Below are positions 30,745 to 47,893 of a stretch of 64,000 bases of DNA, in pieces. Each line of letters begins with the position of its first letter. Position 1 is the stretch's first letter. The position numbers were made by a program, and so were the translations under genes. The notes below the pieces were generated by a model. The model was not told where the DNA came from. It worked only from the letters and a program-made list of their open reading frames with translations, and did no database searches. Origin of the DNA: Nitrosophilus alvini (lineage in GTDB: Bacteria > Campylobacterota > Campylobacteria > Campylobacterales > Nitratiruptoraceae); the NCBI RefSeq assembly GCF_015100395.1, contig NZ_AP022847.1, positions 372,001 to 436,000 on the forward strand, read 5' to 3'.

Positions 30745-32736
30745 TTGTATAATAGAACTTTTCCATATATTGTCGGGCTTCTGAAAAATCTTATACTGCT
30801 TCAGGCTATTTTTTTAGTTATTATGTCTCTTTTCAGGCTTTATCTGTTTTTCAAGTTTGCTCCCATCTCATCTTTTGACGCCAGCGCAGTAGAATATTTC
30901 AATGCCTTTTTACTTGGGCTGAGACTTGATCTGTCCATTTTAGGTTATGTTTTTGCCATACCTCTTTTGTTGATAATTTTTGCGTATATATTCAGAAAAT
31001 TTATATCATTTGAAGTGTTGAAAAAAGTTCTTTTTGTATATTTTTTGGTTTTTTATCTTTTTATTTCACTCATTTTGGCTGCCGATATAGGATTTTTTTC
31101 TTATTTTAACGACCATATAAATATCATGATATTCGGTATCATAGACGACGATACTGCAGCGCTTTGGGAGATAGCCAAGAAAAACTACAATCTGTGGCTT
31201 ATTTTTTCGGGTGCCGCTTTGTATACATATTTTATTTACAGGCTTGTAGCTTTTTTTGTTTTTAAAGTCTCTCCTCTGAATTTGAAAAATTTCGGTTTTA
31301 TCAAACAGACCATTCTCTTTTTCTCTTTTATACTTATTACCTTTCTTGCTATAAGAGGAACACTGGGGATGTTTCCTATATACCACTGGACAAAAGATAT
31401 AGCAGCTGACAATTTCTTAAATAAAGTATCGAAAAACAGCATATATCTTTTTGTACAGTCAGTCAAACAGTATAAAAAGAGTAAAACAAATGACAGAGAT
31501 TATATAAAAGAGGCCGGATTTGAGTCAAATATCGAAGATGCCTTTAAAATCCATTGCCGCAAAAGCGATATCAACAGTTCAGATCTGTTGCAAAATCTTG
31601 TCTACAAAACACCTTACAATGAAAAACTTCAGAAAAACCCTTTAAATGTGGTAGTCATAATGGTAGAGAGTTTTGGTATGCCCATTCTTAAATATCAAAA
31701 TACCCGGTTTGACATAATGAGAAGTCTGAAAAAACATTTCGATGAAGATATTCTGTTTACAAACTTTATATCTACGGCCAACGGTACAATAGTATCAATG
31801 GAACCTATGCTGCTGAACCTAATGGCCAGGCCAAAAAGCGTACCTTATGGGCAGAGTATGTATCAAAATGTCTCCTTTAGGCAGGCAGCGGCAAAAGTGT
31901 ATCAAAAAAAAGGATATGAAACTACATTTCTTTATGGCGGTGACTTGTCATGGAGAAATGTGGGAGCATTTTTTGCAAAACAGGGGTTTGACAATGTTGA
32001 AGGAAAAGCAAAAGTTTTAAAAGAGCTGCATCTTGACGCCAAAAAAGAGACACATGACTGGGGAGTATATGACGAACATCTCTACAGCTATATACTTAAA
32101 AAACTTCAAAACAGTAAAAAGCCCCAGTTTATATTTGCTATGACTACAAATAATCATCCTCCTTATACTGTTCCTTCTGATTACAAATCAAAAAAGCTTT
32201 ACTTCAGCGAAGAGCTTAAAAAACATCTAAGAGGCGATTTGGAACTTATTGAAAAGAGGCTGTATGACTATCAGTACGCTCTTGATATGGCCGGAAAGTT
32301 TCTTGATGCCATAAAATCCTCTCCTTTGGCTAAAAACAGTGTGGTTGTCATAACTGCAGACAACAATACGATAGAAGGGGCTATGAGTTACGACGACTAC
32401 CTTGCCGAATCCAAATTGATACCTTTCTATATCTATATGCCGGAAAATTTCAAACCTGAGCATATTGACACATCAGTACCCGGCTCCCACAAAGATATTA
32501 TGCCCACTCTTTACAATTTGACTCTATCAAATACCGAATATATGGCCGTAGGTACAAATCTGTTGGACAAAGAGTTTTTGCATTGCGGATTCAATGACAA
32601 AGGTATTGTTGTCTCCGAAGCAGGTGCTTTTAAGCTAGGAAAAGCTGTAAACGAAGTTCAAAAAGAGTGCGAAAAGCAGTACCGTGCCACACTTGCGGTA
32701 ACAGACTATCTTGTTAAATCTCACCTAAAACAATAA
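30745..32736 (+). CDS. LtaS-like sulfatase-fold membrane transferase
   Basis: A 663-residue protein with about five N-terminal membrane helices (to residue 210) and a large periplasmic sulfatase/alkaline-phosphatase domain. Landmarks are VVVIMVESFGMPILKYQ (metal ligand Glu), FISTANGT with the likely Thr nucleophile, GYETTFLYGGDLSWRN, HDWGVYDEHLYSYI, FAMTTNNHPPYTVP, VVVITADNN and PGSHKDIMPTLYNL. Relatives in the LtaS family transfer phosphoglycerol, and EptA-like cousins transfer phosphoethanolamine, to envelope glycans or lipids. The TTG start has AAAAGGAA 6 nt upstream. It sits 60 bp before csd6/csd4, which suggests an envelope role. Substrate unknown. Confidence 0.82.
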   Translation: MYNRTFPYIVGLLKNLILLQAIFLVIMSLFRLYLFFKFAPISSFDASAVEYFNAFLLGLRLDLSILGYVFAIPLLLIIFAYIFRKFISFEVLKKVLFVYFLVFYLFISLILAADIGFFSYFNDHINIMIFGIIDDDTAALWEIAKKNYNLWLIFSGAALYTYFIYRLVAFFVFKVSPLNLKNFGFIKQTILFFSFILITFLAIRGTLGMFPIYHWTKDIAADNFLNKVSKNSIYLFVQSVKQYKKSKTNDRDYIKEAGFESNIEDAFKIHCRKSDINSSDLLQNLVYKTPYNEKLQKNPLNVVVIMVESFGMPILKYQNTRFDIMRSLKKHFDEDILFTNFISTANGTIVSMEPMLLNLMARPKSVPYGQSMYQNVSFRQAAAKVYQKKGYETTFLYGGDLSWRNVGAFFAKQGFDNVEGKAKVLKELHLDAKKETHDWGVYDEHLYSYILKKLQNSKKPQFIFAMTTNNHPPYTVPSDYKSKKLYFSEELKKHLRGDLELIEKRLYDYQYALDMAGKFLDAIKSSPLAKNSVVVITADNNTIEGAMSYDDYLAESKLIPFYIYMPENFKPEHIDTSVPGSHKDIMPTLYNLTLSNTEYMAVGTNLLDKEFLHCGFNDKGIVVSEAGAFKLGKAVNEVQKECEKQYRATLAVTDYLVKSHLKQ

Positions 32737-32796
32737 ACATGCTTAAAAGTTTCCTTTGATATAATCTTTCCTACTTTCTGATTTTTCGGAGGTTTT

Positions 32797-33762
32797 ATGA
32801 GAAAAGTTTTTTTGTGGTCTATTGTATCTTTAACTTTTGTTTTTGCAAATATTATCGATATTTACAGGCAGGAAGGTATAGATGCTGTAGCGAGGGTACT
32901 CGATAAGGAACTTCAAAAAGAGAGTTATTGGAAAGGGGTAATAGGTGATAGAGATGTCCGTTTCGGATACTATAGCAATATAGAGTATATACTTGTCTGC
33001 AGTAAAAAAAGAAAGGAATTGGACATATACAAAATAGCCGGAAATGATCTTAAAAAGCTTAAAAGAATAAAAGTGATTGTAGGAAAGAACAGTGGCGATA
33101 AAATAAAAGAGGGTGACCTGAGAACACCTGTAGGGGTCTATAGACTTACAAGAAAGCTTACAGGTCTTGATGATTACTACGGTCCTTTTGCTTTTACAAC
33201 AACATATCCAAATCTTTTTGACAGAATAAGGGGTAAAAACGGCCACGGTATCTGGATACACGGAATGCCTCAAAATTGTGAAAGAGAGCCTGATACAAAA
33301 GGCTGTATAGCAATGGAGAACGATGAACTGCAAAGACTTGACGATATGCTCAATCTCAAGAAAACAATCCTTCTTATTAATGAAGATAAACCTGATACCG
33401 CTAACAAAGAGGAAATTGTACAGATTTTATCTATGCTTTACAAATGGAGATATGCCTGGAAAAACAGCGATATAAAAAATTACCTTCGATTTTATCATTC
33501 CAATTTTGTCAGGTTTGACGGAAAGAATCTCAAAGAGTTTTCTAAAATGAAACAAAGAATTTTTGCATCAAAAAAAGGAGATAAAATAGAAATAATTTTT
33601 GAGAATATAAATGTCATTCCTTATCAGATGCCCGGAGACGAAAGAGTATATAGAGTAAACTTTCATGAAAAATATCGTTCAAGAAGTTACAGGTTTGAAG
33701 GGGATAAAGAGCTTTATATCTCAAAGACGGCCGATGGATGGAAAATTTTGGTGGAGAGATAG
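32797..33762 (+). CDS. csd6: L,D-carboxypeptidase/transpeptidase (cell-shape protein Csd6/Pgp2)
   Basis: A 321-residue periplasmic protein: signal peptide, an N-terminal dimerisation region, a YkuD catalytic domain with HGIWIHGMP (His150, His155) and DTKGCIAM (Cys170 nucleophile), and an NTF2-like C-terminal domain from about 205. This three-part architecture is that of Helicobacter Csd6 and Campylobacter Pgp2, which trim tetrapeptides of peptidoglycan to tripeptides and set helical shape. The ATG follows GGAGG. csd4, acting next in the same trimming path, starts 3 bp after the stop. Confidence 0.88.
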   Translation: MRKVFLWSIVSLTFVFANIIDIYRQEGIDAVARVLDKELQKESYWKGVIGDRDVRFGYYSNIEYILVCSKKRKELDIYKIAGNDLKKLKRIKVIVGKNSGDKIKEGDLRTPVGVYRLTRKLTGLDDYYGPFAFTTTYPNLFDRIRGKNGHGIWIHGMPQNCEREPDTKGCIAMENDELQRLDDMLNLKKTILLINEDKPDTANKEEIVQILSMLYKWRYAWKNSDIKNYLRFYHSNFVRFDGKNLKEFSKMKQRIFASKKGDKIEIIFENINVIPYQMPGDERVYRVNFHEKYRSRSYRFEGDKELYISKTADGWKILVER

Positions 33763-33764
33763 CT

Positions 33765-35057
33765 TTGAGACTTCTTTTGCTGTCACTTTTTATCGTCTGC
33801 TCGGTTTGGGGTGCAGAGCTTCATTTTGATCTTTATAAAAAAGAGTCGTCAAATCCGTCACATACCCTTTTGGTTATCGGAGGAGTACACGGAGATGAGC
33901 CCGGAGGATATTTTGCGGCCTCTTTCCTCGTAAAATATTACGATATTAAAAAAGGAGCGCTATGGGTTGTACCAAATCTGAATTTTGATTCTATTATAAG
34001 ATTTAGACGTGGTATATACGGCGATATGAATAGAAAATTTGCTTCTATAAAAAAAAGCGATCCGGACTACACTATAGTAAACGATATAAAAAAAATCATT
34101 TTGAACGAACAAGTAGATCTTATTTTGAATCTGCATGACGGAAGAGGCTATTATAGAGAAAAGTGGGAAAATACTATATTTAATCCTTTTGCATGGGGAC
34201 AGGCATGTATAATAGACCAGGAAGAGATTGACGGCTGTAAATTCGGCGATCTTAATAAAATTGCCCAAAAAGTTAACAGTGCACTTAACAACAAAAAACT
34301 GAAAAAAAACCATCACGCTTTTCATATTAAAAATACAAAAACGAAGTTCAAAGATGAACAGATGAAGCTCTCTTTGACATATTTTGCAATTACACATAAC
34401 AAACCGGCTCTTGCTATCGAAACCAGCAAAAATATAAACGATCTTGCAACTAAGATATATTATCAGTTAAATGCGATAGAGGAGTTTATGAAGATTTTGG
34501 AAATTGAATTTGAAAGAGAGTTTGAGCTGAGTATCGAAACTATAAATAATCTTTTAAAAAATGATTTGGATTATATAGTAATAAACGACAATATAGTGCT
34601 TCCTTTAAAAAATATCAAAAAAAGTATAAGATTCTTCCCTTTAACCGAGAGAAAAATAAGTTTTATTTGCGACGATCCGTTGGTAACAGTAGTGGAGCGT
34701 GGCAAAAACTATGTGATTTACAGGGGTTATAAGAAACTGACAGCTCTCTATCCCCAATATTTCAAGTCAGGTTGTGAAAAGAGAGGCATGGAGTTTGTAA
34801 TCGACGGCAAAAAAGAATATGTACAGATCCCATCTGTTGTAAAAGTCAAAAAAAATTTTAAAGTTTTGGCATCCGATGATATAAGGGTAAATGTTATCGG
34901 TTTCAGTAAAAAAGGTGTTTTGAATGAGAACAATATTGAGATAGAGAAAAAAGAGTGTCAGGATAGATACTCTATTGATAGTTTTCATAAAATGTATAGA
35001 GTCGAATTTTATAAAGATAAAAGTTTTTGCGGTTCAGTTATAGTCTATTTTGATTAA
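33765..35057 (+). CDS. csd4: Peptidoglycan D,L-carboxypeptidase (cell-shape protein Csd4/Pgp1)
   Basis: A 430-residue secreted M14-type metallocarboxypeptidase. The signal peptide begins at a TTG (33765) with GGTGGAGAG upstream; an in-frame ATG at 33738 would put the hydrophobic core too far in. Zinc ligands are visible in GGVHGDEPGG (His42, Glu45) and LHDGRGYY (His124). The catalytic Glu is probably Glu219 in LAIETSKN. C-terminal immunoglobulin-like beta domains follow. Csd4/Pgp1 cleave the tripeptide left by Csd6/Pgp2 to a dipeptide. H. pylori Csd4 is known for Gln at the first zinc position; here it is His, as in classical M14 enzymes. Confidence 0.87.
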   Translation: MRLLLLSLFIVCSVWGAELHFDLYKKESSNPSHTLLVIGGVHGDEPGGYFAASFLVKYYDIKKGALWVVPNLNFDSIIRFRRGIYGDMNRKFASIKKSDPDYTIVNDIKKIILNEQVDLILNLHDGRGYYREKWENTIFNPFAWGQACIIDQEEIDGCKFGDLNKIAQKVNSALNNKKLKKNHHAFHIKNTKTKFKDEQMKLSLTYFAITHNKPALAIETSKNINDLATKIYYQLNAIEEFMKILEIEFEREFELSIETINNLLKNDLDYIVINDNIVLPLKNIKKSIRFFPLTERKISFICDDPLVTVVERGKNYVIYRGYKKLTALYPQYFKSGCEKRGMEFVIDGKKEYVQIPSVVKVKKNFKVLASDDIRVNVIGFSKKGVLNENNIEIEKKECQDRYSIDSFHKMYRVEFYKDKSFCGSVIVYFD

Positions 35058-35092: not shown

Positions 35093-36814
35093 CTAAAAAA
35101 TATAAAAATAGTAAAGCAATGTTTTAACATAATCTTGTGCGGTTCCCTGAAAGTTTTGCGAATACCCGATACTGAAACTCAGGTTGTCTTTTCTAAAAAG
35201 CGGACCGCCCATTCCTGTCTCAATGGCAAATCCTGTATCTGTAACGCTGTTGAAAGATAAATAGGAACTCAAAAAGGGTCTCCATCTTCTTGTATATATG
35301 TACTTTTGGTCATATCCGAAAAGAAAACCGATGCCTGCTTCATGGTAAGACTCCGGCAGTGCTTTGAAATCTGAATAAGGAGAAAGAGGTTTCATTACAC
35401 CTTTTTCGCTTTTTTCGCTGAAACGGGCACTTGTTAAATATGAACGAAATGTGAAATCAGGATAAGAGTTTCTTAGCCTGTAAAGGCCTTCTATCTCTAT
35501 TTTTTTACCGCTGCCCGTCTTTTTGTCATCCTGAGAATAGTAATAGGCATTTTCCATATACACACTGATGTTGTGTCTATTTGAAACTCTATAAATAAAA
35601 TCGATTCCTATGAGATTTTTTTTGCCACCAAGCAGTGTAAAAAGAGTCTCATCAGCTTTACTGCCGATGGCAGCTTTTATGGAAGTATCTATCTTATCAG
35701 TACATTTTGAAAAATATTGTATTTTTGCAGTGCCGAAATTCTCAACAGATTTTCTATATCCGGCCTCTGCGTAGATATAGCCTCTGTGCAACAGTTTTTT
35801 TACTCTTATAAACGCCTCTTTTTCCGATGTGGGAATATTTTTTATCTCACTGGTATCCAGTGTTTTGTTTTTGGAAAAAATAAAACCAGAACTAACAAAA
35901 ATTGTCTGAGAAACTCTCTTTTTAACAAAAATTTTATCCGTTATCTGTTTCAAAGAGCCTCTCTTTGTATAATCCAAAGTATTTGATACTTTTGAAGAAT
36001 TTTCCGATAAAAGGTCATTATACTGTTTGTAAAGCAGATAATCATATCTGTATTTATCCATATAGCCGTAAGCTCTGCTCAATGCCTCATCATATCTTTT
36101 GAGTCTGTTAAGTGCTTCCACCTCGTCTCTGTGTGGCAGCATACCCATATAATTTTGTAAAATTTTATGCAGTTTTTCCTTATTATAATCGTGAAGAGCG
36201 ATATTTAGTTCCATCCATGGTTCCGGCAAAAAAGAGATTTCTTTTTTTTCAGCTCTTTTTTCAAATTTTTTGATATCTGTCTTTGCTTTTTTAACCGGCT
36301 CGTCATCCGGAAATTTTAAAGAGATTGTTTTCATACTTTTTTCTTTGCCAGATGCAACCTTTTGTGGTAATTTTTCTTTCTCTTTTTCTTCTTTCAAAAT
36401 ATCAATATCATTGAAAACATTTTTCAGAATCTTAAAAAGTTTTTTTGCTTTTTTCTCTTTGCCTTCTTTTTTAAGGTAAAAGAGCTTTTTCAAAAAGAGA
36501 TTTTTAGCCTTTTGCGGGTCTGTATTTACTATACTGTAGTCTCCTGGCAGTTTTTTAATTTTTTTAAAATCGATAGTTCGTACCAATCTTTTGAGGGGTG
36601 TTGTTTTTTTATCTATCATATATCTGATAGTTGACAGATTTCTCTCTGTTTTGTAGATGATACTAAAATCTTTTATGTTGTCCGGAAGATTTTCATATAT
36701 CTTTTTTACAGCTTCTTTGTCTGTTGAAGTTAAAAGCTGAATAGAGTAAACCCTGTTTTCCTGGGCATAAAGAGAAAAAACGGCTAAAAAAATTATAAAG
36801 AAAAATCTTACCAT
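35093..36814 (-). CDS. PelB-type outer-membrane porin module with SPOR-like N-terminus
   Basis: A 573-residue protein with a signal peptide (FFFIIFLAVFSLYA). Residues about 22-95 resemble a SPOR fold (VYSIQLLTSTDKEAVKKIYENLP, then LSTIRYMID). A Lys/Glu-rich stretch (110-190) and a few helical repeats follow. From about residue 255 to the end there is a beta-barrel with alternating aromatics, ending in LLYYFYIF with a terminal Phe as required for BAM recognition. The barrel corresponds to the C-terminal exporter domain of PelB. It is last in the pel operon and overlaps the TPR gene by 7 bp. Identity rests on position, barrel features and missing full-length PelB. Confidence 0.75.
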   Translation of the reverse strand: MVRFFFIIFLAVFSLYAQENRVYSIQLLTSTDKEAVKKIYENLPDNIKDFSIIYKTERNLSTIRYMIDKKTTPLKRLVRTIDFKKIKKLPGDYSIVNTDPQKAKNLFLKKLFYLKKEGKEKKAKKLFKILKNVFNDIDILKEEKEKEKLPQKVASGKEKSMKTISLKFPDDEPVKKAKTDIKKFEKRAEKKEISFLPEPWMELNIALHDYNKEKLHKILQNYMGMLPHRDEVEALNRLKRYDEALSRAYGYMDKYRYDYLLYKQYNDLLSENSSKVSNTLDYTKRGSLKQITDKIFVKKRVSQTIFVSSGFIFSKNKTLDTSEIKNIPTSEKEAFIRVKKLLHRGYIYAEAGYRKSVENFGTAKIQYFSKCTDKIDTSIKAAIGSKADETLFTLLGGKKNLIGIDFIYRVSNRHNISVYMENAYYYSQDDKKTGSGKKIEIEGLYRLRNSYPDFTFRSYLTSARFSEKSEKGVMKPLSPYSDFKALPESYHEAGIGFLFGYDQKYIYTRRWRPFLSSYLSFNSVTDTGFAIETGMGGPLFRKDNLSFSIGYSQNFQGTAQDYVKTLLYYFYIF

Positions 36815-38451
36815 TTTTTGACCCCATATCTTTCGATTATAAATTGTGCAGATTCATAACTGTTTCTCGACAGATGCAAAGATATTATGTATGGTAAAAC
36901 TGCTTCTTTTCCAAAACGATTTTCTCCTAGTTTTATAAGTTTTGATATTTTGTATGCCGGCTCAAAAAAGAAAGCTAGCCTGAGATGATTTTCAAAAAAT
37001 TCTCTATTGCCTAAGATATTCCTGTCTCTTTTCATTGCCGCCAAAGATAGTTTATACGCTTTGAATCTGACAAACTTAGCTTCATCAAACTTTCCATACA
37101 TCTGAAGAATATCCGAGTAGAGGATAAGTAAAGAGATATTATCCGGCTCTTTGGATAGTTCTTTTTTTATAATTTCCATCGCTTTTAGATGTTTTTTGAG
37201 TGCTATATATGCTGATAAAAGAGCGTTGGTATGACCATTTTTGGCAATACGTTCAAATTTTGAGATATAGTGTTTGAGCTCTTTTATCTCTTTTGTATCT
37301 ATCAAAAACCAGATAAAAGATGTGAAAAGATCATTTGAAAAATCTGTATATTTTAAACCTCTTTTATAGGTCTCTTTTGCATTTTCTATATCTTGGATTT
37401 CCTGATAAGCTTTCGATAAAACGATCCAAAAATACGGATTTTCTAATAGTCGTTCATTTTTTATATCCTGACAGGCAGATATGATTTTGTTCCATTTTTT
37501 TAGATTGGAAGCGATACGCACAAAATGAAAAAAGAGAGTTGGATTTTTGTATTTTATCCAGTTTTTATATGCAAGTTTCATTGCCTCTTTATTCTTCCCT
37601 TTTTTCTCATAAAAAACAATCAGTTTCGTAATATCATCTATATCGGCTTTTTTGCTTTTCTCTATTTTTTTTAACGCTTCATAGGCACTCTCAAACTCCT
37701 GTAAAACCAAAGATAGCTGCAAAAGAGTTTTCCAAAAAAGATAGTTATCATCTTTGGTATACGGTTTTGCTTGTAGCAATACTCTGTATGCTTCTTTGAT
37801 TTTTCTTTTTGAATAGAGTGTACGTGCTACTTTTAAAGCGGTACCAGTAGGAAAAAACCGCTGTTTTTTATATAAAAGTTCGGCTGTTTTCAACATTCCT
37901 TCCACATCTCCTTCAGACTCAAAAAGATGCAGAATCTCAAAAAGCACTTCTTGGGAGCCAGTTTTTTTATATATCTTTTTAAAGAAAGCTATTCCATCTT
38001 TACTGTGAGCGTTCATTTTGAATACGTATGTCAAATCTTTGATTTTTGATAAATCCCCCTTTTGTATCATACTCTTTAAAATCTCTTCTGCTATGTCATA
38101 TCTTTTTAGAGAAAGAGAGAGGTCGAGTATCTGTTTTTTTAGCTCTTTTTTGCCACTTTTTTTAAAAATATAGTAGTAGTTTTCAAGAGCTTCATTGCCT
38201 CTGTCGGTCCACAATGAGAGTTTTGCGAGCCACTCTCTGTAGTAGATATTGTTCGGTTCATATTTTTTGACAATTTTTTTCACAAGTCTGTAAGCGCTTT
38301 CCAGGTCGTTGCTGTCCAAAAATGCTCTTAACATTAGATTAAAGCTCTCATCTTTTTTCGATGCATTTGCCAAATTGATATTTTGTGCAGACAGATTCGG
38401 TAAAAAAAAGAGAAAAAAAGATAAAAAGAGTATTGCAAAAACGGACTTCAT
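36808..38451 (-). CDS. PelB-type secreted TPR module
   Basis: A 547-residue protein with a signal peptide (MKSVFAILFLSFFLFFLPNLSA) and a solenoid of about a dozen TPR-like helical pairs, for example NPYFWIVLSKAYQEIQDIENAKETYKRGLKY and ISLLILYSDILQMYGKFDEAKFVRFKAYKL. There is no membrane helix after the signal peptide and no barrel. In PelB of Pseudomonas such TPRs line the periplasm and bind PelA; here they are a separate protein. ATG at 38451 overlaps the previous stop by one base, with GGAGAAG upstream. It overlaps the barrel gene by 7 bp. Confidence 0.78.
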   Translation of the reverse strand: MKSVFAILFLSFFLFFLPNLSAQNINLANASKKDESFNLMLRAFLDSNDLESAYRLVKKIVKKYEPNNIYYREWLAKLSLWTDRGNEALENYYYIFKKSGKKELKKQILDLSLSLKRYDIAEEILKSMIQKGDLSKIKDLTYVFKMNAHSKDGIAFFKKIYKKTGSQEVLFEILHLFESEGDVEGMLKTAELLYKKQRFFPTGTALKVARTLYSKRKIKEAYRVLLQAKPYTKDDNYLFWKTLLQLSLVLQEFESAYEALKKIEKSKKADIDDITKLIVFYEKKGKNKEAMKLAYKNWIKYKNPTLFFHFVRIASNLKKWNKIISACQDIKNERLLENPYFWIVLSKAYQEIQDIENAKETYKRGLKYTDFSNDLFTSFIWFLIDTKEIKELKHYISKFERIAKNGHTNALLSAYIALKKHLKAMEIIKKELSKEPDNISLLILYSDILQMYGKFDEAKFVRFKAYKLSLAAMKRDRNILGNREFFENHLRLAFFFEPAYKISKLIKLGENRFGKEAVLPYIISLHLSRNSYESAQFIIERYGVKKW

Positions 38452-39506
38452 CAATACTTCTCCATCAATTTGACTGAAATTTTTCGTGCCAGTTTTGTTT
38501 CACCTGCGCCAAGAGCCGCTTTTATCATACTTTTTGCCGTCTCTTTGTCATTTGCAAATTCCATTCCGTACCGCTTTATAAGGTTTGCGGCCATTTTTGT
38601 TCTGTTTCCGGATAATAAAGAGTTTAAAGCCTTTAGAAAATATATTTTTCTGGCACCTTTTTTACTCTGTTTCATCGCTTCAATATATAGTTTTGACGCT
38701 TTTCCATAGAGCCCTCCGGCAAGAGCGGTTAATGCGCCTTTTTCATACCATAAGAGGCTTTTTTCTCTATCTAGTGCGGCCAGTTTCTCATAATATTCAG
38801 TTGCTCTTTTGTGTTTTGATGTCTGGACCATTAAAGAGGCAAGTCTCTTTAGATATTTTTTTCTGTTTTTCGGATCAATTTTTAGAAGCTCTTTGTAAAA
38901 CTCTTCGCTTTTATTGAAATCAGAATTTTGAAGTGCAATCGATGCAGCCTGATTGAGCCAGAAAATTTTGTTTCCAGACTCTATCAGTCTCTCAACGGCT
39001 TTCATTGCGATATCAAAAAAAGAGAAAGAGAGTGCTTCTTTGTAAACAAATCTGTAATCCTCTTTTTTTTCTGCATTTTTATAAAAGGTGTAAAGAATTT
39101 TTTTCAGATTTTTTCTTGTTTTGTCTCTATCTTTCCTGCTTGAGAAATATTTCGTTTTTTCGAGATTGTATTCAAGTAGGAGTATTTTTTTTGTTTCTGT
39201 ATCGAAATAGTTCTCTTTAAGGTCATCTATGACTTTTCGGGCTTTTTCTATTTCACCGGATTGCAGATATTTTTCAACAAGCAAAAAAAGAAAGCGATAA
39301 TCCGCTTTATAGAATTTTCTTATATTTTCTATATATTGTATAGTAAGAGTGTTGTTAGATGTCTCTTTTTTTAAAAGCTGCAAAATTTTATCTTCAGGAA
39401 ACAGCAGCAACAGCACAGCCATAACAATAACAAAAAAACCGGCTATCTCATACCACTCAAAAAGTTTCTGCTGTTTTACGCTGTTTTTATCTGCATTCGG
39501 TTTCAA
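38451..39506 (-). CDS. PelB-type membrane-anchored TPR module
   Basis: About 351 residues: a short basic N-terminus, one TM helix (WYEIAGFFVIVMAVLLLLF) and periplasmic TPR-like repeats (AASIALQNSDFNKSEEFYKELLKIDPKNRKKYLKRLASLM, then HKRATEYYEKLAALDREKSLLWYEKGALTALAGG). The frame opens at 39536, but a TTG at 39506 has a GAGG site 6-8 nt upstream and reduces overlap with pelA to 20 bp. It appears to be the N-terminal anchored portion of a split PelB scaffold that holds the periplasmic assembly to the inner membrane. Confidence 0.75.
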   Translation of the reverse strand: MKPNADKNSVKQQKLFEWYEIAGFFVIVMAVLLLLFPEDKILQLLKKETSNNTLTIQYIENIRKFYKADYRFLFLLVEKYLQSGEIEKARKVIDDLKENYFDTETKKILLLEYNLEKTKYFSSRKDRDKTRKNLKKILYTFYKNAEKKEDYRFVYKEALSFSFFDIAMKAVERLIESGNKIFWLNQAASIALQNSDFNKSEEFYKELLKIDPKNRKKYLKRLASLMVQTSKHKRATEYYEKLAALDREKSLLWYEKGALTALAGGLYGKASKLYIEAMKQSKKGARKIYFLKALNSLLSGNRTKMAANLIKRYGMEFANDKETAKSMIKAALGAGETKLARKISVKLMEKY

Positions 39507-42216
39507 TTGTCGCCTCTTTGCTTTTTTCAAATTCAAAAATAATCATATTCTCTTTTTCAGAAACTCTGTAGTCTTTTGGTCCAATCACTTTATAGGAACA
39601 CTCTTCTCTTTTCCTAATTTTGACTTTGATGGGAATATACCCTTTAAAAACAGCCTTGAAGCCTCTTTTGTTTCGTTTGAAATCTTTCAATAAAGAGTTT
39701 GCTTCTATGATGTAAGAAAAAGCGTTCTCTTCTTTGCCAAGTTTAAGTTCATAATCCCCGGAATCATTTAAATGTACGTAAGTAGAGCCTATATCATACT
39801 TTTCCCCGACAATATTTTTTGATGCAGCAAAATCGATGTTTTTGAAGCCTTCAAGTCTCAGAGTTTTTAGATGACCGTCACCTTTTATTATCCATTTGTC
39901 CTTTTTGATCGCAATGGCTATATTTTCAAAGTCCAATACTTTTTTTATCCATTCGGATGTATATATCGGAATCGTTTTCTGATTCATAGCCCATAGATAA
40001 ATCTCTTTCAGACTTTTAAGAGAAGATTGCTTTGAGGCAGAATAAAAATGGTAATAGATATTAATCGGTTTGATTCTTCTGGGATAGCCGGTAAGTCTGA
40101 ATGTTTGCAAAACTTTTTTAAAACCGGCGTAGTTTGTCCAGCCGTCGGTAAAAATGTTTTCGTTCTGTATCGGGGCATATATCTGGAAAAACTCTCCTCT
40201 ATATAGTCCAAGCGGCGATATATATATAAGCCAGGGATGTTCATCCGTTATGATCGTATCTCCTCCGTTTATATTCAAAATTTGGTTTTCATAGCATATT
40301 TTAAGTGCCTCTTTGTTTGGCAGACAGTCACCGGTCCAGAAAAAAAGGCGAGTTTTCTTGTTTTTTAAAAGTTGTCTGTTTATATAATCTATAGAACCAA
40401 GTATCTCTCTTTTAAGATTAAATCTATAATTTTTCAAAGAGAGAGTATATCCATCTTTTTCTGCTTGTGCAAATTCCCATATAAAAGGATGTGAAAAGCT
40501 GTGACTTGCCGCTTCAACATTAGGTAAAGAAAATATCTTGCGGGCAATTTTTTCAAGTTTTGGCGATATTTCGGGATAAAGCCCGTATGGGGCGATTTCT
40601 CCTTCAATAACCGATACAGAGTGAGGAATTTTGTACTTTTTTAAAATCTCTTCATATAGTATCTGAGATGCAAATTTTTTCTGATCCCAAACAGCCCTTT
40701 CCATAAAACCGTCACCATCTATATGGACAAACATTATTCTGCTGCCGTTTTCAGTTGTGGTATCGGGAGTTGGAATATCCGGCAGTCTTAGGGCTCTTTT
40801 GAAAAACTGGAACGGGTTTAAAACCCAAAGAGTATCACCGAAAAGCTCTACCGTACAACTCCCCTGAAGTGCATATCCTCCCCATGGCGTAATTGCGGCA
40901 GTTGCAAACTTCTGCCCCTTTGAATTTTCAGCTTCTATAAGAACCTCTCCTTTTTGTGGATATAGAAGATAGTAGGTATGCTCAATAAGAGGTTCGGTTT
41001 CAAAGTTTGCGATTTTGTCTTTATGTAAGATACGGTATTTTTCAAATGGAGTTGAAAGATTTTTTGAAACTTTTATATTAAGTTTTTTTAAATAGGAGTT
41101 ATCCGAAAATCCGAAATCGTTTAGAAAAAGTATCTTTATGCCCTCCTTTTTCTTTTGTAAAATCCAATTGAAAAATTCATCCTGATTTTCCGGTACCGTT
41201 CCTTCCAGTGCAACAATCACACCGGCATATCTGTCGGCCAAAAAAGTATCAGGCAGACCTTTTTCTTTAATATTCCAAAGTTCCGGAATGAAGCCGAGAT
41301 ACTCAAGAGGCATGGAAAAGAGTAGGTGTGCATCATATTTCCATTTTTCTTTTTCACTGCCGTAAAAGAGGATAAGTACTTTTCTTGGAATAGGCTCTAT
41401 AGTACTTATTCCTACGGTTGAAAGGTGTTTGTCTGTAACATAAGGAATGAAACCGTTATTTTCTATCTTTTTTGCTATCTCTTTTGCCTCTTTTCTGTTT
41501 TTTGGCTCCACATAATCTACAACTATAACCGGCAAGCCGAGTTTTTTTACTCTGTCTAGCCTTTTTTTTAGCCATTTTGTATCTTCGGCACCGATCTTTT
41601 TGACCTGCATATTTTTTGTATCAATTCCGCTGAAAAGAGACTCTGCCAAAACCGCGTCAATCTCTTCTTTGATATTTTCCAGTATTTCAAAACCTCTGTT
41701 TACTATAATCTTTTTTTCGGGGAATTTTGTTTTGACATCTTTTATAAAAATTTCAAGAGCTTTTTCATACTCTTTTCGCTCTTTTTTATCTTTTAGTACA
41801 AGCTGATATGAGTCAAGTGTATCGAACATAAATCCGTCATAATCATTAAGTTTTTTCAAAACAGTCTCTATTAGAAAATCTCTGTACTCTTTTTTTCTTA
41901 TATCTGTTATAAAACTTTTCCAGTCCCTGTTTTGGCCTATAATCCACTCTTTTTTTATTTTGCTGAAATATTTTCTCTCTTTTTCAACTTCTCCTATACT
42001 TACATATGCAAAAATTACGGCTTCTTTTCTATTTTTCTTTATAGCTGTTGCGTCTGGGTCGACAACTATCCAGTCAAAAAGTCTGAATATCTCTCTGGGC
42101 GGATTTTGATCATAATAGAGTGCAACAGACGAGGGAACAGCTCTTTGTGCTGCCAGTGCGTATGCTGCCAGGAGGAAAAAAGCAATAAATAGTTTACTGC
42201 AGCATAAACGTTTCAT
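39487..42216 (-). CDS. pelA: Pel polysaccharide hydrolase/deacetylase PelA
   Basis: A 909-residue periplasmic protein with a signal peptide. Residues about 25-275 form a GH114/TM1410-like glycosidase domain (VALYYDQNPPREIFRLFDWIVVDP, YDGFMFDTLDSYQL, and VLAESLFSG with probable catalytic Glu192). A Rossmann-like segment (270-420) follows. The CE4-type deacetylase domain has VHIDGDGF (Asp500, Asp502) and SHSFSHP (metal ligands His572, His576), then a beta-rich C-terminal region. PelA partly deacetylates Pel, giving it positive charge, and can cleave it. Both active sites look intact. It overlaps pelG by 23 bp. Confidence 0.92.
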   Translation of the reverse strand: MKRLCCSKLFIAFFLLAAYALAAQRAVPSSVALYYDQNPPREIFRLFDWIVVDPDATAIKKNRKEAVIFAYVSIGEVEKERKYFSKIKKEWIIGQNRDWKSFITDIRKKEYRDFLIETVLKKLNDYDGFMFDTLDSYQLVLKDKKERKEYEKALEIFIKDVKTKFPEKKIIVNRGFEILENIKEEIDAVLAESLFSGIDTKNMQVKKIGAEDTKWLKKRLDRVKKLGLPVIVVDYVEPKNRKEAKEIAKKIENNGFIPYVTDKHLSTVGISTIEPIPRKVLILFYGSEKEKWKYDAHLLFSMPLEYLGFIPELWNIKEKGLPDTFLADRYAGVIVALEGTVPENQDEFFNWILQKKKEGIKILFLNDFGFSDNSYLKKLNIKVSKNLSTPFEKYRILHKDKIANFETEPLIEHTYYLLYPQKGEVLIEAENSKGQKFATAAITPWGGYALQGSCTVELFGDTLWVLNPFQFFKRALRLPDIPTPDTTTENGSRIMFVHIDGDGFMERAVWDQKKFASQILYEEILKKYKIPHSVSVIEGEIAPYGLYPEISPKLEKIARKIFSLPNVEAASHSFSHPFIWEFAQAEKDGYTLSLKNYRFNLKREILGSIDYINRQLLKNKKTRLFFWTGDCLPNKEALKICYENQILNINGGDTIITDEHPWLIYISPLGLYRGEFFQIYAPIQNENIFTDGWTNYAGFKKVLQTFRLTGYPRRIKPINIYYHFYSASKQSSLKSLKEIYLWAMNQKTIPIYTSEWIKKVLDFENIAIAIKKDKWIIKGDGHLKTLRLEGFKNIDFAASKNIVGEKYDIGSTYVHLNDSGDYELKLGKEENAFSYIIEANSLLKDFKRNKRGFKAVFKGYIPIKVKIRKREECSYKVIGPKDYRVSEKENMIIFEFEKSKEATIETECR

Positions 42217-43561
42217 AATGAAGCCTTTCGAAATCTTTGTTTAAAAGGTACATGCCTGCAGTTGAGACGATAAGCAGTGATAGAGCAAATCCGTAACCGA
42301 AGAAATAGGGGCCAAGTTCTATGGAAAGAAAAGTCAACCCCACATTCAGAACCAAAAAGAAGAAAGTAAGAATAAAAACACTTCTTTTCCTATCAAGATA
42401 AAACATTATAGCAAGCAAAGACATAAAAAAGAGCTGTAGCTGCGTGGCAACAAGGTCTATATAAAAAAGCGGCAGATACAGAAGCGGCATATCGAGCATT
42501 TTAAAGATGGGTTCACTAAATATTATTAGCATAATTGTTATGATACTTTGTATTCTTATTATTTCGATTAGTGCCGTTCTTGCAGCTTCTATCATCTCAT
42601 TTCCGCTTTTATAGATATGAGCAAGTGTTGCACCTTCTCTTGCAGCAGAATAGTACTCTTCGTACTTTTGCGCAAAATCTGTCTCAACTCTAAGTAAAAA
42701 AACTGCCATTCCGGGCGCAATCGCCAGATATGCAAGAAAAATGGGCAGATCGTATATGGCAGAGTCTCTTAAAAAGCCTAAAACATGGCCGCTGGTTTGT
42801 GGATGAAACCAAAAGATGAATTTATCGGCCCAGACTGCTGCGTTATAAAAAAATCCGGTAAATATCAAAGAACGGAACATTTTGCCGTTCAGGAAATCGA
42901 ATTCTACAAGTTTATCGGAAGGGTATTTTTTTATAATAAGTCCCGCCAGAAGAAAAAAGAGCATAGCATGTCCGGCAAAAAAAGATGCCAAAAGTGCATT
43001 GAGCCCAAGTTTGCCGAAAGTAAAAACAAGTACCAAAATCAAAAAATAGGAGAGAAAAAAAGAAAGAATTATGAATTTATAGTTTTTAAGTCCGGAAAGT
43101 ACAACATTTGCTATCCAGATACCGCAAAGAACTGTAAATGAAAATGTAAAAAGAAGAGAGTAAAGAACCCCTGCGCTATTAATGAAAATCAGTGCAAAAG
43201 GAAAGATGAAAAAAAATCCGAAAACCATATTAAATCCGATTGCTCCGAGAAGATTGGGAAGGATTTTGTTTATCTTCTTCTCAAATATCCTGTCGGCTAT
43301 ATATCTTGTAAAAGAGAGTTGGAAAAAGCTTGTAAATATCAGACTGATAGCTATAAGATAGGTAATCGTTACCTGAAACTGTGTTACGATCTGCTGGTCT
43401 TTTAGATATATTTTTGCAATGAATCCAGCAATCAGAATGCTTATTATGGATATTAGCCAGGGACCGGAGCTGACCGCTGCGGAGTAGCCGTAAGCTTTCA
43501 GTATGGAGAAGAGTCTTTTTTCGCTTAAAATCTTTCTAAGTTCAAATCCTATACCTGCCAA
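42194..43561 (-). CDS. pelG: Pel polysaccharide exporter membrane protein PelG
   Basis: A 455-residue integral membrane protein with about 12 hydrophobic helices. The N-terminus MAGIGFELRKIL is the conserved PelG opening, followed by AYGYSAAVSSGPWLISI. PelG belongs to the MVF/MATE-like flippase superfamily and, with PelD, PelE and PelF, forms the inner-membrane synthase complex that moves the Pel polymer across the membrane. The TTG start overlaps the pelF 3' end by 13 bp, and the 3' end overlaps pelA. Full length for the family. Confidence 0.93.
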   Translation of the reverse strand: MAGIGFELRKILSEKRLFSILKAYGYSAAVSSGPWLISIISILIAGFIAKIYLKDQQIVTQFQVTITYLIAISLIFTSFFQLSFTRYIADRIFEKKINKILPNLLGAIGFNMVFGFFFIFPFALIFINSAGVLYSLLFTFSFTVLCGIWIANVVLSGLKNYKFIILSFFLSYFLILVLVFTFGKLGLNALLASFFAGHAMLFFLLAGLIIKKYPSDKLVEFDFLNGKMFRSLIFTGFFYNAAVWADKFIFWFHPQTSGHVLGFLRDSAIYDLPIFLAYLAIAPGMAVFLLRVETDFAQKYEEYYSAAREGATLAHIYKSGNEMIEAARTALIEIIRIQSIITIMLIIFSEPIFKMLDMPLLYLPLFYIDLVATQLQLFFMSLLAIMFYLDRKRSVFILTFFFLVLNVGLTFLSIELGPYFFGYGFALSLLIVSTAGMYLLNKDFERLHYETFMLQ

Positions 43562-45066
43562 TTTTGAATAGCCTCCGTGTATATGTTTTTGTAGTTATTT
43601 AGAAAAACCTCCATAGTGTAATATGTTTCGACTCTTTTTATTGCGTTACTTTGACATTTTTCCCAGAGATTTTCGTTTTCGAACAGTTTTATGTAGGCCT
43701 GAGCCAGTTTGGATGGGTTTGCAATGGGGACAACTTCGCCGGCACTGCCTATTTTTCTATCTTCTTCGTCTATTCCCCCGTAGATAAGCTGAGAGCATGA
43801 GCCTACATCGGTGGTAACTGCAGGAACACCCGCTCCAAAACCCTCTATTACCACAAGAGGCATACCTTCGCTGATGGAGCTCAGGGTTAAAATTCCGGTT
43901 TTGGGCAGTATATCTTCTACTCTTTGGAATCCCAAAAATTTGATATGGTTTTTTAGTCCCAGAGTCTCTACCAAAAGCCTGCACTCTTTTGCATAGTCGG
44001 GATCTTCGTTTTCGGGACCCACTATCCAGCCTTCTATATCTTTGATACGGTTTGCTGCTATACGCATCGCTTTTATAAATGTTTTGATATCTTTTATAGG
44101 AACGACCCTACCTATGAGGGTTATGACTTTTGGAATCTTCTCTTTTCGCAAGTGGCGCAGTTTTTTGAATTTTTCAATGTCTATTCCGTTTGGAACTACT
44201 TTTGTTTTTTCCGGTGCTGCCCCGTACGCTATCTGAATTTTTCTCGCATTTTCAAAAAGGGATATTATGGGGTTTGCGGCTTCATAGGAGATTTTTCCTA
44301 TACCTTCGAAAAATTTAATCCACATATTTTTTATATGGCTTATAGTTCCCAATTCTTTTTGAAAAATTGTTCTGTTGTCTATAAGCCAGTCGGCATTGAG
44401 CATATCGATTTTTCTCTCTCTGGTATATATACCGTGTTCGGTAAGAATAAAAGGTTTTTTGTAATTGAAACCAAGCAGTGCTCCCAGGAAACCTGCATAG
44501 CCCGTAGAGGGCGAATGGACTATTTTGAAACATTTTATTTTCGATGCAATGGATGCAACATTCCATATTGGAGAATGCATATTTCTAACCGTCCAGAAAT
44601 AGTCGATAAATGCGCTCTCTGGAGTAAACGAGAGGTATTCGGACTGTATAATGTCCCATGAATTTTTGCTGTACAAAAACTCTTTTTTAGTTATATGTTT
44701 CAAATAAAAATCTATATTTTTTATATTTTGCGGCATTGGGGATAGCTCTTTTTTTCTAAACCAGTTTTGAAGTTTTATTATATCTTCAAATTTTTTATTG
44801 CTGCCGTTCATAATTTCCGGCTCAAACCTGTGGCTATTGCCAAACAGATACTCTGTTTCAAGGTAAACCAGATTTTTGGGAAGATCGTATACAATATCAC
44901 CGTAATCCTCTTTTTTGCTTCCCAGAAAAACAATACCGAAATTAATATCCGGCATACCTGTTATAAGTTGATGTATCCATGTAGAAACACCTCCTCTGAT
45001 ATAAGGATATGTGCCTTCTGCCACTATAAGCACGTCTATCTCTTTTTTTTTGAAAAAATTTATCAA
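43549..45066 (-). CDS. pelF: Pel polysaccharide glycosyltransferase PelF
   Basis: A 505-residue cytosolic GT4-type glycosyltransferase. The donor-independent N-terminal half has the PelF signature VLIVAEGTYPYIRGGVSTWIHQLITGMP. The C-terminal half has IPKVITLIGRVVPIKDIKTFIKA and the ExxxxxE-type SSISEGMPLVVIEGFGAGVPAVTTDVGS, which binds UDP-sugar. PelF polymerises GalNAc/GlcNAc-type residues in Pel. The longer TTG at 45081 overlaps the GGGAGG binding site, so the TTG at 45066 (TTGA overlap with the pelE stop) is chosen. Confidence 0.94.
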   Translation of the reverse strand: MINFFKKKEIDVLIVAEGTYPYIRGGVSTWIHQLITGMPDINFGIVFLGSKKEDYGDIVYDLPKNLVYLETEYLFGNSHRFEPEIMNGSNKKFEDIIKLQNWFRKKELSPMPQNIKNIDFYLKHITKKEFLYSKNSWDIIQSEYLSFTPESAFIDYFWTVRNMHSPIWNVASIASKIKCFKIVHSPSTGYAGFLGALLGFNYKKPFILTEHGIYTRERKIDMLNADWLIDNRTIFQKELGTISHIKNMWIKFFEGIGKISYEAANPIISLFENARKIQIAYGAAPEKTKVVPNGIDIEKFKKLRHLRKEKIPKVITLIGRVVPIKDIKTFIKAMRIAANRIKDIEGWIVGPENEDPDYAKECRLLVETLGLKNHIKFLGFQRVEDILPKTGILTLSSISEGMPLVVIEGFGAGVPAVTTDVGSCSQLIYGGIDEEDRKIGSAGEVVPIANPSKLAQAYIKLFENENLWEKCQSNAIKRVETYYTMEVFLNNYKNIYTEAIQNWQV

Positions 45067-46064
45067 ACTTTTTCCTCCCAAAGTGCAATAATGGGATAAA
45101 GTTGCGGATCATAACGCATATGAGGATGATTTGAAAATATTTTTCTTACTTTTGCAAACTCTTTTCTATAAAAATGTATTTCGGCGAGAAACGGTACGGT
45201 TTTGTATTCCGGAGAGCCGATATATACAGCTTTTTTGAACAGTTCATATGCAGAATCTATATCTTTTTTTATAAGACACAGACGGCCCAGTGTTATGAGT
45301 ATGAATGGATCAGTTTTCAGTTCGTCAAGTGCACTCAGCGCATGTTTTTCGATTTCCTGCAAAATAAATTTTTTATATTCGCTGTCCGCAAGTCCGATAT
45401 AGATATACTCCCAGTATAATCTGGCCAGTTCCTTGTGGGCTTTTGCTTTTTGTCTTTTATCTTTTGTTTTTTCTATGAGAGAGATTTTGTCGTGTATCTG
45501 AGTGCTCAACTCCTTTTCAAGTCTGTTTATAACACTGAAAGATAGAAGTCTTATTTCGTCGTTCGGGTCTTTAAGTCCGCTTTTGATAAGCTGTATGCTT
45601 TCCGGGGTTTTGAGTTCTGTCAGTAGTAAAAAAGCTTTGAGTCTGAGTTCTGTTGGCAGCTCTTTTTTCAATGCAAAAACTTTTAAAGAACTCTCTCCGT
45701 AATTCCTTTTATGTACTACTATTTTTTCTGCGATTATATCGGAAAAATTCGCTTTATTTATTGGCAGAGGTTTAGTCTCTTTTTGTGTTCTTAGGATAAT
45801 GTTGTAAACAATAAATCCGATATAAGAAAATAGCGGCATAACAAAACATACGATAAATATAAGAGAGAAAGAGTAAAACTTTGGATTTTTATATTTTTTT
45901 GGCAACAAAATCCAGACTGCATATGCTATAAGAGCGCTTGCCAATGAATGAAATGTGAAAAAACCTGCCATCTGCGCCGCAGCACTTGTACTTTTAAGTG
46001 CACCCAATGCTCCTATTTCTAAGAAAATCGATGTTCCTGCAGCTTTGTATACAGATGCGCTCAT
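45063..46064 (-). CDS. pelE: Pel complex membrane protein PelE
   Basis: A 333-residue protein with two to three N-terminal hydrophobic helices (FFTFHSLASALIAYAVWILL, FYSFSLIFIVCFVMPLFSYIGFIVYNIIL) and a cytosolic helical-repeat region with HEAT-like (LLTELKTPESIQLIKSGLKDPNDEIRLLSFSVINRLE) and TPR-like segments. PelE sequences are poorly conserved; assignment rests on topology and its place between pelD and pelF, as in known loci. The start overlaps the pelD stop (ATGA). It is thought to help assemble PelD and PelF at the membrane. Confidence 0.85.
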   Translation of the reverse strand: MSASVYKAAGTSIFLEIGALGALKSTSAAAQMAGFFTFHSLASALIAYAVWILLPKKYKNPKFYSFSLIFIVCFVMPLFSYIGFIVYNIILRTQKETKPLPINKANFSDIIAEKIVVHKRNYGESSLKVFALKKELPTELRLKAFLLLTELKTPESIQLIKSGLKDPNDEIRLLSFSVINRLEKELSTQIHDKISLIEKTKDKRQKAKAHKELARLYWEYIYIGLADSEYKKFILQEIEKHALSALDELKTDPFILITLGRLCLIKKDIDSAYELFKKAVYIGSPEYKTVPFLAEIHFYRKEFAKVRKIFSNHPHMRYDPQLYPIIALWEEKV

Positions 46065-47326
46065 TTTACAGACTCCATTTTTGCCAAAATGTTTTCTATG
46101 TCCTTATCTATAAGTGTCAGCAGGGTAGATGAGATATTTTCTTCATACTCTTTTCCAAAGTCTGATGAGATGTTTCTTCTTATTCTTTTGATAAATTCCA
46201 TAGCACCAATATTGGGTGTAAGGGGAAGCAGTACGACTACTTTATATCTATTTGAGTTGATAGAGGTATAGAGTGTGTCTATTCCTCTGAGAGATTTCTC
46301 AATATTTGCCGCTATCAGTTCTCCCATGCTGTTGTTCTCATATGCGAATATCACGATACTGCTTTGAGTTTTAAACCTGTTTTTAAGTGCTACTATTTTG
46401 TCAAGTTCTTTTATAAAAACTTCCGGTATTGTGGGGAATTTTTTGTTTAGATAGGAGTAGTCTCTTGCTGTTTCGTATGTATTTATAAAATATGAAAGAA
46501 AAAGGCTTATTGTCAAAAGATTATCTTTGTTTAGATTTAAAAAAGGGATCTCTTTAACAAGAAGAATGCCTTTTACACTGTTTTGACTGGTTACAGCGGG
46601 AATAACTGCAATATATTCTGTATTTTTCATAGCATGTGCAACCGTAAAATATGCCGTTGACTTCTCTTCAAGTGCACTTTTTAGCAGAGGATCATTTATG
46701 TGAAATGGAATGTTCTCTTTGCCTAAAGTAGAAACCGGATTAAAATTCCCCTCTTTATCTTTTATATATAAAGATGCGGACTCTATACCGCAGACTCTTC
46801 CTGTGAGTTTTAAAAACTCTTCGAAATAGTTTTTTTCGTTTTCATAAAGCATCTCTTTTATCTCTTTGAGAGTCTCTCTGATACTCAGAGGTTTAAGTAT
46901 ATAGTTTTTTTCCAGCTGGTCGTGAGAAGTTTTGAGAATGAAAAGGTTTGTTGCGGTCTCTTCCAGTTTTTCTTTCAAATAATCATTTACTTCATCATAC
47001 TCCTGGAGTTTTCTTTTCCAGTAATAATGAAACTCGCTCAATATAAAAGCCATAAGCAGATACATGGAAAATATTTCATAAGGAAACGTCTCGTAAAAAA
47101 TTAAAAGAGATACAGCAAAAATCGTCATACATAGAATTGCCGTACCAAAACCGTAATAGAGTGAAATTATAGAAAGAAGCAGAAGATAGTATGAAAAATG
47201 TTTCTGGAGAAGCAGCGGATCTTCTCGGTTAATATACCATCCTATTGCTATCGATACAGTGCTGATAAGAAAAACTTCAAAATATGACCTAAGCTTCCCG
47301 TTCCCGAAAAAATTTATAAACTTCAT
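46061..47326 (-). CDS. pelD: c-di-GMP receptor PelD
   Basis: A 421-residue protein with four closely spaced N-terminal membrane helices (about 15-110), a coiled linker, a GAF domain (about 165-285: YFEEFLKLTGRVCGIESASLYIKDKEG) and a degenerate GGDEF domain (about 305-415) lacking the catalytic GGDEF loop. The inhibitory-site motif RxxD is kept as RGID (Arg347, Asp350) at the expected position. In P. aeruginosa this motif binds c-di-GMP and turns on Pel synthesis. The protein should therefore make the locus c-di-GMP-dependent. It ends in ATGA overlap with pelE and starts 27 bp after pelC. Confidence 0.92.
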   Translation of the reverse strand: MKFINFFGNGKLRSYFEVFLISTVSIAIGWYINREDPLLLQKHFSYYLLLLSIISLYYGFGTAILCMTIFAVSLLIFYETFPYEIFSMYLLMAFILSEFHYYWKRKLQEYDEVNDYLKEKLEETATNLFILKTSHDQLEKNYILKPLSIRETLKEIKEMLYENEKNYFEEFLKLTGRVCGIESASLYIKDKEGNFNPVSTLGKENIPFHINDPLLKSALEEKSTAYFTVAHAMKNTEYIAVIPAVTSQNSVKGILLVKEIPFLNLNKDNLLTISLFLSYFINTYETARDYSYLNKKFPTIPEVFIKELDKIVALKNRFKTQSSIVIFAYENNSMGELIAANIEKSLRGIDTLYTSINSNRYKVVVLLPLTPNIGAMEFIKRIRRNISSDFGKEYEENISSTLLTLIDKDIENILAKMESVK

Positions 47327-47353: not shown

Positions 47354-47893
47354 TTAAAAAAAGAGGAAAGATAATTTTTTTCTCTCTTTGTCTCTTTTTA
47401 TCATATCATACGCCATCTCGTTTAGAAGTTCATGTGCTATTGTGCTTACAGACTGATAGCTCCAGCCGGTTTTTGAGGCCACACTTCCCCAGATATATTT
47501 TTTTTGTACAGTATCGTATATTTTAAGTGTTATACTTACTGCAGGTTCACCGTCTATACCGGTTTTGTACCTGTACTCATTTACATACCCAGTTATAATG
47601 TATGCTGTATCATTTTTCTCCATCTTTTTGATCATTTCTCTTATCTCTTTTAAAGTGTAGTCCCTCTCATCGATATCCCACAAACTTCCCTTTATAACAA
47701 GACCGTAGGATTTAAAAACTCCCTCTGCTATTCCGGCGACTCTGTACCCGGCCATGGGTGTCTGTGTAAAATTTGCAAATGGCAAGATTACGAATTTTTC
47801 AGTTTTAGTAATTTTTGGAGCTTCCGTGTTATATACAAGAGAGCAACCACTAAAAAAGAAGAGCATAAGAAAAAATGAAGTAATTCTGAGCAT
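47354..47893 (-). CDS. pelC: Pel outer-membrane lipoprotein PelC
   Basis: A 179-residue lipoprotein with lipobox FSGC (Cys17). PelC signatures are FVILPFANFTQTPMAGYRVAGIAE and EYRYKTGIDGEPAVSITLKIYD followed by WGSVASKTGWS. PelC forms a dodecameric ring with a charged pore at the periplasmic face of the outer membrane and funnels Pel to the PelB porin. The ATG at 47893 follows AAGGAG with 6-nt spacing; a GTG two codons upstream is too near. It is the first gene of the pel operon. Confidence 0.93.
   Translation of the reverse strand: MLRITSFFLMLFFFSGCSLVYNTEAPKITKTEKFVILPFANFTQTPMAGYRVAGIAEGVFKSYGLVIKGSLWDIDERDYTLKEIREMIKKMEKNDTAYIITGYVNEYRYKTGIDGEPAVSITLKIYDTVQKKYIWGSVASKTGWSYQSVSTIAHELLNEMAYDMIKRDKERKKLSFLFF

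Follow-up and report, generated by a model that had tools for sequence, protein, structure and literature searches.

PelB of Pseudomonas aeruginosa is a single chain of 1193 residues in which an inner-membrane helix, a TPR scaffold, PelA-binding repeats, a PelC-docking stalk and a 16-strand barrel are joined (PDB 9h80, 5wft). In the pel locus of Nitrosophilus alvini the same parts are spread over three consecutive genes, which raises the question of whether these genes encode one exporter and how its pieces would be held in place. A sequence-only reading of the locus had claimed that PelB is split here into an inner-membrane-anchored TPR protein, a secreted TPR protein and a barrel protein, an architecture unlike that of Pseudomonas.

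The splitting of PelB as such is not new, since "pelB fission" in aquatic thermophilic species is already named in the legend of Fig 5 iii of Bundalovic-Torma 2020 (PMC7112194), where as in the present locus pelB occupies more than one gene in thermophiles. The main text of that paper does not say where pelB breaks, into how many parts, with which domains or in which taxa, and mentions neither SPOR nor a three-way form. No account of PelB break points, of the three-way form or of SPOR on PelB was found in the open-licence literature, which likewise yielded nothing relevant on pel in Campylobacterota; the three-way form and its wall-binding-type domain appear to be undescribed. New here are the break points, the parting of the PelA-binding from the PelC-binding region and the finding of SPOR(-like) domains only on detached barrel chains.

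The pel operon and its three pelB genes

The window, the whole stretch of 64,000 nucleotides that was analysed, corresponds to C1:372001-436000 of the closed 1.81 Mb N. alvini genome. On its minus strand pelC, pelD, pelE, pelF, pelG and pelA run in this order from 47893 to 39487 as one operon and are followed directly, with no gaps, by the genes for PelBn, PelBm and PelBc (Table 1). PelC matched the solved PelC chains 5t0z, 9h80_C and 5t11 at E about 1e-21 (phmmer), PelD keeps its RxxD motif as RGID at residue 347 and PelA retains the motifs DGFMFD, AESL, DGDG and SHSFSH. The PelE-like gene, with a counterpart 61% identical in genome G386 and others in further pel loci, is assigned by synteny and orthology only. 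To judge by its sequence the operon looks complete, intact and functional.

Table 1. Features of the N. alvini pel locus (positions in the window)
Feature	Position	Strand	Basis or detail
PelC lipoprotein, ring around PelB at outer membrane	47354..47893	(-)	lipobox LFFFSGC
PelD, c-di-GMP receptor	46061..47326	(-)	PF16963 PelD_GGDEF, 46.5 bits
PelE-like membrane/TPR protein	45063..46064	(-)	placed between pelD and pelF
PelF glycosyltransferase	43549..45081	(-)	NF038011 PelF, 654 bits
PelG inner-membrane transporter	42194..43561	(-)	PF16933 PelG, 471 bits
PelA hydrolase/deacetylase	39487..42216	(-)	GH114-type domain
PelBn, inner-membrane-anchored TPR protein, N-terminal third of PelB	38451..39506	(-)	351 aa, TTG start
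PelBn transmembrane helix, residues 19-36	39399..39452	(-)	read from sequence
PelBm, secreted TPR protein, middle of PelB	36808..38451	(-)	547 aa, ATG start
PelBm signal peptide, residues 1-23	38383..38451	(-)	MKSVFAILFLSFFLFFLPNLSAQ, by eye
PelBc, outer-membrane barrel protein, C-terminal part of PelB	35093..36814	(-)	573 aa, ATG start
PelBc signal peptide, residues 1-18	36761..36814	(-)	MVRFFFIIFLAVFSLYAQ, by eye
PelBc SPOR-like domain, residues 19-103	36506..36760	(-)	Aquificota SPOR profile, AF2
PelBc last TPR-like helices and stalk, residues 197-272	35999..36226	(-)	AF2 helices 199-272
PelBc 16-strand barrel, residues 273-573	35096..35998	(-)	PF24604, AF2, Foldseek

PelBn, PelBm and PelBc lie in consecutive open frames with overlaps of a few bases between neighbours; the mechanical ORF of PelBn begins at 39536, upstream of the TTG start adopted here. 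The parts of PelB are thus carried by three genes in the window and not by one polypeptide. The split would have lost its meaning had a full-length PelB gene been present elsewhere, and a search of the closed 1.81 Mb genome revealed no second or fused PelB. A weak own-genome match of PelBc at C1:1490003 is a PAS/histidine-kinase-like frame and was set aside as a chance hit.

On the plus strand at 30745-35057, convergent with the PelBc gene, lie genes for a sulfatase/LTA-synthase-like protein, a YkuD protein with a Cds6_C domain (Csd6-like) and an M99 carboxypeptidase (Csd4-like). The same sulfatase/YkuD/M99 trio adjoins pel in G386 (locus L034), and YkuD and M99 genes lie near pelC in G039 (locus L123), linking pel with peptidoglycan shape enzymes by gene neighbourhood.

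Correspondence of the three proteins to PelB

Signal peptides and cleavage sites of the three proteins were judged by eye. PelBn has a short charged start, a single hydrophobic helix (IAGFFVIVMAVLLLLFP) for which no cleavage site was seen, and then TPRs recognised by TPR family matches, the same order of inner-membrane helix and repeats with which PelB begins. The helix and the following P37 are conserved among 15 orthologues (alignment A3), and many fused PelBs likewise begin with a transmembrane helix and an [FY]P motif. Directly against P. aeruginosa PelB (PaPelB), PelBn gives a weak match at E 3e-4 that does not exceed its match to designed TPRs; its orthology rests on the fused homologues and on gene position. 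PelBm, with a signal-peptide-like start that contains no lipobox, matches TPR_15 at 155 bits, and its residues 47-492 align with PaPelB 299-742 (446 residues, E 8.2e-13), identifying it as a TPR scaffold homologous to the PelB repeats; by this alignment it spans the counterpart of the PelA-binding repeats.

In PelBc the signal peptide is followed by a SPOR-like domain and, after a linker, by TPR-like helices that precede a 16-strand barrel, which is recognised by the Pfam PelB barrel family PF24604 (124.8 bits against a cut-off of 31). In the AF2 model of PelBc, with a mean pLDDT of 81, helices lead into 16 strands, and a Foldseek search with this model gave as top match the PelB cryo-EM chain 9h80_M (396 columns at E 1.4e-21; TM 0.81 relative to the target), whereas phmmer with PelBc alone against the PDB found no PelB. 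Residues 197-272, the equivalent of the PelC-docking part of PaPelB, fall inside the match; as PelB is the best solved structure over these 396 columns, PelBc takes in the segment that in PaPelB sits inside the PelC ring. The PelB-like fold that the sequence-only reading had asked of predicted structures is therefore present in PelBc as the C-terminal barrel with its preceding helical stalk.

The three parts also occur fused, in loci L025, L061 and L039. Profiles of the N-terminal (N), middle (M) and C-terminal (C) parts tile the fused 1213-residue PelB of L025 without gaps, N covering 1-310 (as 1-242 with 201 bits, and 251-310), M 313-834 and C 837-1213. Together with the TPR matches and PF24604 this tiling bears out the proposed division into an inner-membrane TPR protein, a secreted TPR protein and a barrel protein.

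On PaPelB the first break lies before residue 299, ahead of the PelA-binding region, of which 332-436 has been crystallised and for which TPR9-14 are needed (PMC12022489). It matches only approximately the kink after TPR8 in an AF3 model (PMC12022489), and no link is claimed. When PelBc and its fused relatives are combined in one profile, PaPelB is matched over 303-728 and, in its C part, from about 808. The second break falls between about 742 and 808, a range that contains the flexible stretch 762-802 not resolved in the PelBC cryo-EM map (PMC12141448). With breaks at these positions the split would separate a synthase-side, a PelA-side and a PelC/pore part, functional labels that we infer from the sequence correspondence.

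The three chains are strongly basic, with charges of +29, +35 and +37 (6-8 per 100 residues, where the mean for the window is near 0 with a wide spread), in contrast to the PelBs of Pseudomonas, measured as acidic (-37 to -39). The electronegative route published as guiding the cationic Pel polymer may consequently not carry over. Charge is not conserved across PelBs. The N. alvini exporter thus departs from that of P. aeruginosa, a single chain without SPOR, in having three basic chains of which the last bears a SPOR-like domain.

Distribution and origin of split PelB forms

PelB forms are written here with a stroke at each break, NMC being fused, N/MC and NM/C encoded by two genes and N/M/C by three. 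Strong PelG was detected in 21 of 397 Campylobacterota genomes, where PelB is fused in two (G073, G392), N/MC in 15, N/M/C in two (the window and G386) and NM/C in two (G039, G085), the barrels of the last pair both being too diverged for PF24604. The survey of Campylobacterota pel loci that had been proposed thus uncovered split forms of all three kinds, with the three-gene form rare beside N/MC. Within the window's own family a PelB barrel is present in two of 22 genomes. G386 (locus L034) has the same three genes, whose products are 35-41% identical to those of the window and each have their own secretion or membrane start, so the split is conserved; a metagenome-assembled genome of the same clade (L043, genome G411) carries N/M/C on contig L128, whose end truncates the last gene.

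In a PelG scan of named genomes, fused PelB was found in most proteobacteria and in Nitrospirales, and N/MC in Geobacteraceae, Aquificota and single other lineages. PelG occurs in 49 of the 136 genomes of the Aquificota set, and the loci with a readable pelB are N/MC except for L153 (G476), which is N/M/C, and two with pelBn only. Loci L162 and L163 of this set hold pelBn without an adjacent middle or barrel gene. At L141 (7694-11550) the barrel of a two-gene pelB is interrupted by an inserted frame in a pel operon otherwise intact, and in eight loci (L024, L026, L028, L031, L036, L069, L091 and L117) two copies of pelA, of about 850 and 890-920 residues, flank pelB. The architecture of the window does therefore differ from that of Pseudomonas in having three chains for one, as had been claimed, but is not unique as a split, two-gene PelB being usual in Campylobacterota and Aquificota.

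Each two-gene form shares one break with the window. The N/MC PelBs of Campylobacterota, Aquificota and Geobacteraceae have the same first break, and about a third of their MC chains carry a SPOR(-like) domain, but the middle TPR part is still joined to the barrel. The NM/C PelBs of Nautiliaceae (L123, L045) have the same second break and a barrel protein that starts with a SPOR-like domain, whereas their inner-membrane and middle TPR parts form one protein. In all, the three-gene form turned up at four loci, of which three belong to the window's clade and one, L153, to a separate branch; in G411 and L153 too each gene has its own secretion or membrane start. A tree of PelF and PelG groups the window with G386 and L043 as the sister of the NM/C operons of Nautiliaceae type (99% SH-aLRT), with L153 elsewhere on a long and poorly placed branch; given this separation the second break most likely had at least two origins.

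A SPOR-like domain on the detached barrel

The earlier description of the barrel protein was right as to its own signal peptide and its barrel but overlooked the SPOR-like domain between them. PelBc gave no direct match to Pfam SPOR (PF05036) up to E 1. The N-terminal domains of Aquificota PelBs exceed the Pfam SPOR cut-off in five chains (55, 40, 37, 35 and 28 bits), and a search of 1619 frames with a profile made from the Aquificota domains alone picked out the window domain with 49.7 bits (E 2.7e-14), establishing its homology to Pfam-confirmed SPOR domains; the same profile matches L034, L128, L123 and many Sulfurimonas-type chains. The AF2 model of the domain (pLDDT 86) has a beta-alpha-beta-beta-alpha-beta topology that fits SPOR. 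With Foldseek the isolated domain had no match below E 0.001, the SPOR domain of RlpA (6i09) being among the closest solved folds (TM 0.61/0.68, prob 0.99) but at E 0.075; because these E-values are not significant, the assignment rests on the Aquificota-only profile. SPOR profile A5 against the PDB returned nothing useful.

SPOR-like domains were counted in 20 of 59 MC chains and in all complete C-only chains (four by the C profile and two from Nautiliaceae). They were absent from the 35 fused PelBs, the 65 N chains and the M-only chains. As the counting profile included these domains among its seeds, the absences are the informative side. Among PelB chains a SPOR(-like) domain was thus seen only where the barrel is no longer joined to the inner-membrane part. 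It is not required for splitting, since about two thirds of two-gene PelBs are without it. A tandem pair of SPOR domains is present on the barrel chains of Aquificota-set loci L143, L144, L146 and L153, and the Sulfurimonas pel loci L069, L078, L091 and L113 encode an additional secreted protein of 550-597 residues with a PelB-type SPOR-like N-terminal domain.

A probable divided exporter

We read the three genes as one functional PelB exporter divided at two linkers, with its outer-membrane part held to the peptidoglycan, and give this reading a probability of roughly 0.78. PelBn in the inner membrane would take the polymer from the PelDEFG synthase, PelBm would serve as a soluble periplasmic TPR rail holding PelA during deacetylation of the polymer, and PelBc would form the outer-membrane pore with its helices docking in the PelC ring, the scaffold presumably being assembled by contacts between the proteins. 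The SPOR-like domain hints at attachment of PelBc to peptidoglycan, and such a tether, probable for the pore, would replace the fixing otherwise given by a continuous chain to the inner membrane.

SPOR domains are known to target proteins to denuded glycan at the septum, and the domain on PelBc might mainly localise Pel export to the division septum instead of acting as a mechanical anchor. The structure 6i09 is of an RlpA SPOR with denuded glycan, and the M99 and YkuD genes, whose products trim peptidoglycan and which adjoin pel in the window, in G386 and in G039/L123, would suit such a role. The neighbouring shape genes may be unrelated, however, and the window domain has diverged so far as to lack a direct Pfam match; we consider septal localisation as the main role unlikely.

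Another alternative to the divided exporter would be the lack of any continuous scaffold, with PelBn part of the synthase complex, PelBm a free PelA activator and PelBc with PelC a stand-alone pore, the polymer crossing the periplasm by diffusion and relay. In its favour, the proteins have secretion signals of their own and each step has its own domain, and SPOR would hold PelBc at the wall with no need of the inner membrane. Alginate export offers a precedent in the TPR lipoprotein AlgK, separate from the barrel AlgE (PMC9734138), although alginate export differs from the N. alvini system in that AlgK is a lipoprotein, its barrel and polymer are others and it has no inner-membrane TPR part. 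Set against this, the constant gene order, the overlaps, the gap-free tiling and the strict co-occurrence of the parts suggest equal amounts and contact, and we hold a scaffold-free export route to be quite improbable.

Decay or frameshifting of an ancestral PelB, which three frames in place of the one in Pseudomonas could bring to mind, is rejected, as each gene has its own signal or membrane start, the three frames hold no stops or frameshifts, the genome is closed and the orthologues in G386 keep the same breaks. Nor do we accept chance neighbourhood of unrelated TPR proteins and a porin, for although TPRs are common and cross-match many proteins, the long PelBm alignment, the PF24604 and 9h80 matches of the barrel and the fused counterparts all point to PelB.

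Implications for Pel export

Two natural break sites and four arrangements (NMC, N/MC, NM/C and N/M/C) suggest that PelB need not span the periplasm unbroken, with the breaks marking the borders of working units on the synthase side, the PelA side and the PelC/pore side. The smaller PelB pieces would be good material for reconstitution of the exporter. Tentatively, the Pel exporter of these Gram-negative bacteria may be seen as a modular relay in which SPOR pins the freed pore to (septal) peptidoglycan and so couples export to the wall or to division. If this is true, exopolysaccharide export would be physically coupled to the cell wall or to cell division. The SPOR(-like) domain offers a connection of polysaccharide export with peptidoglycan that can be tested.
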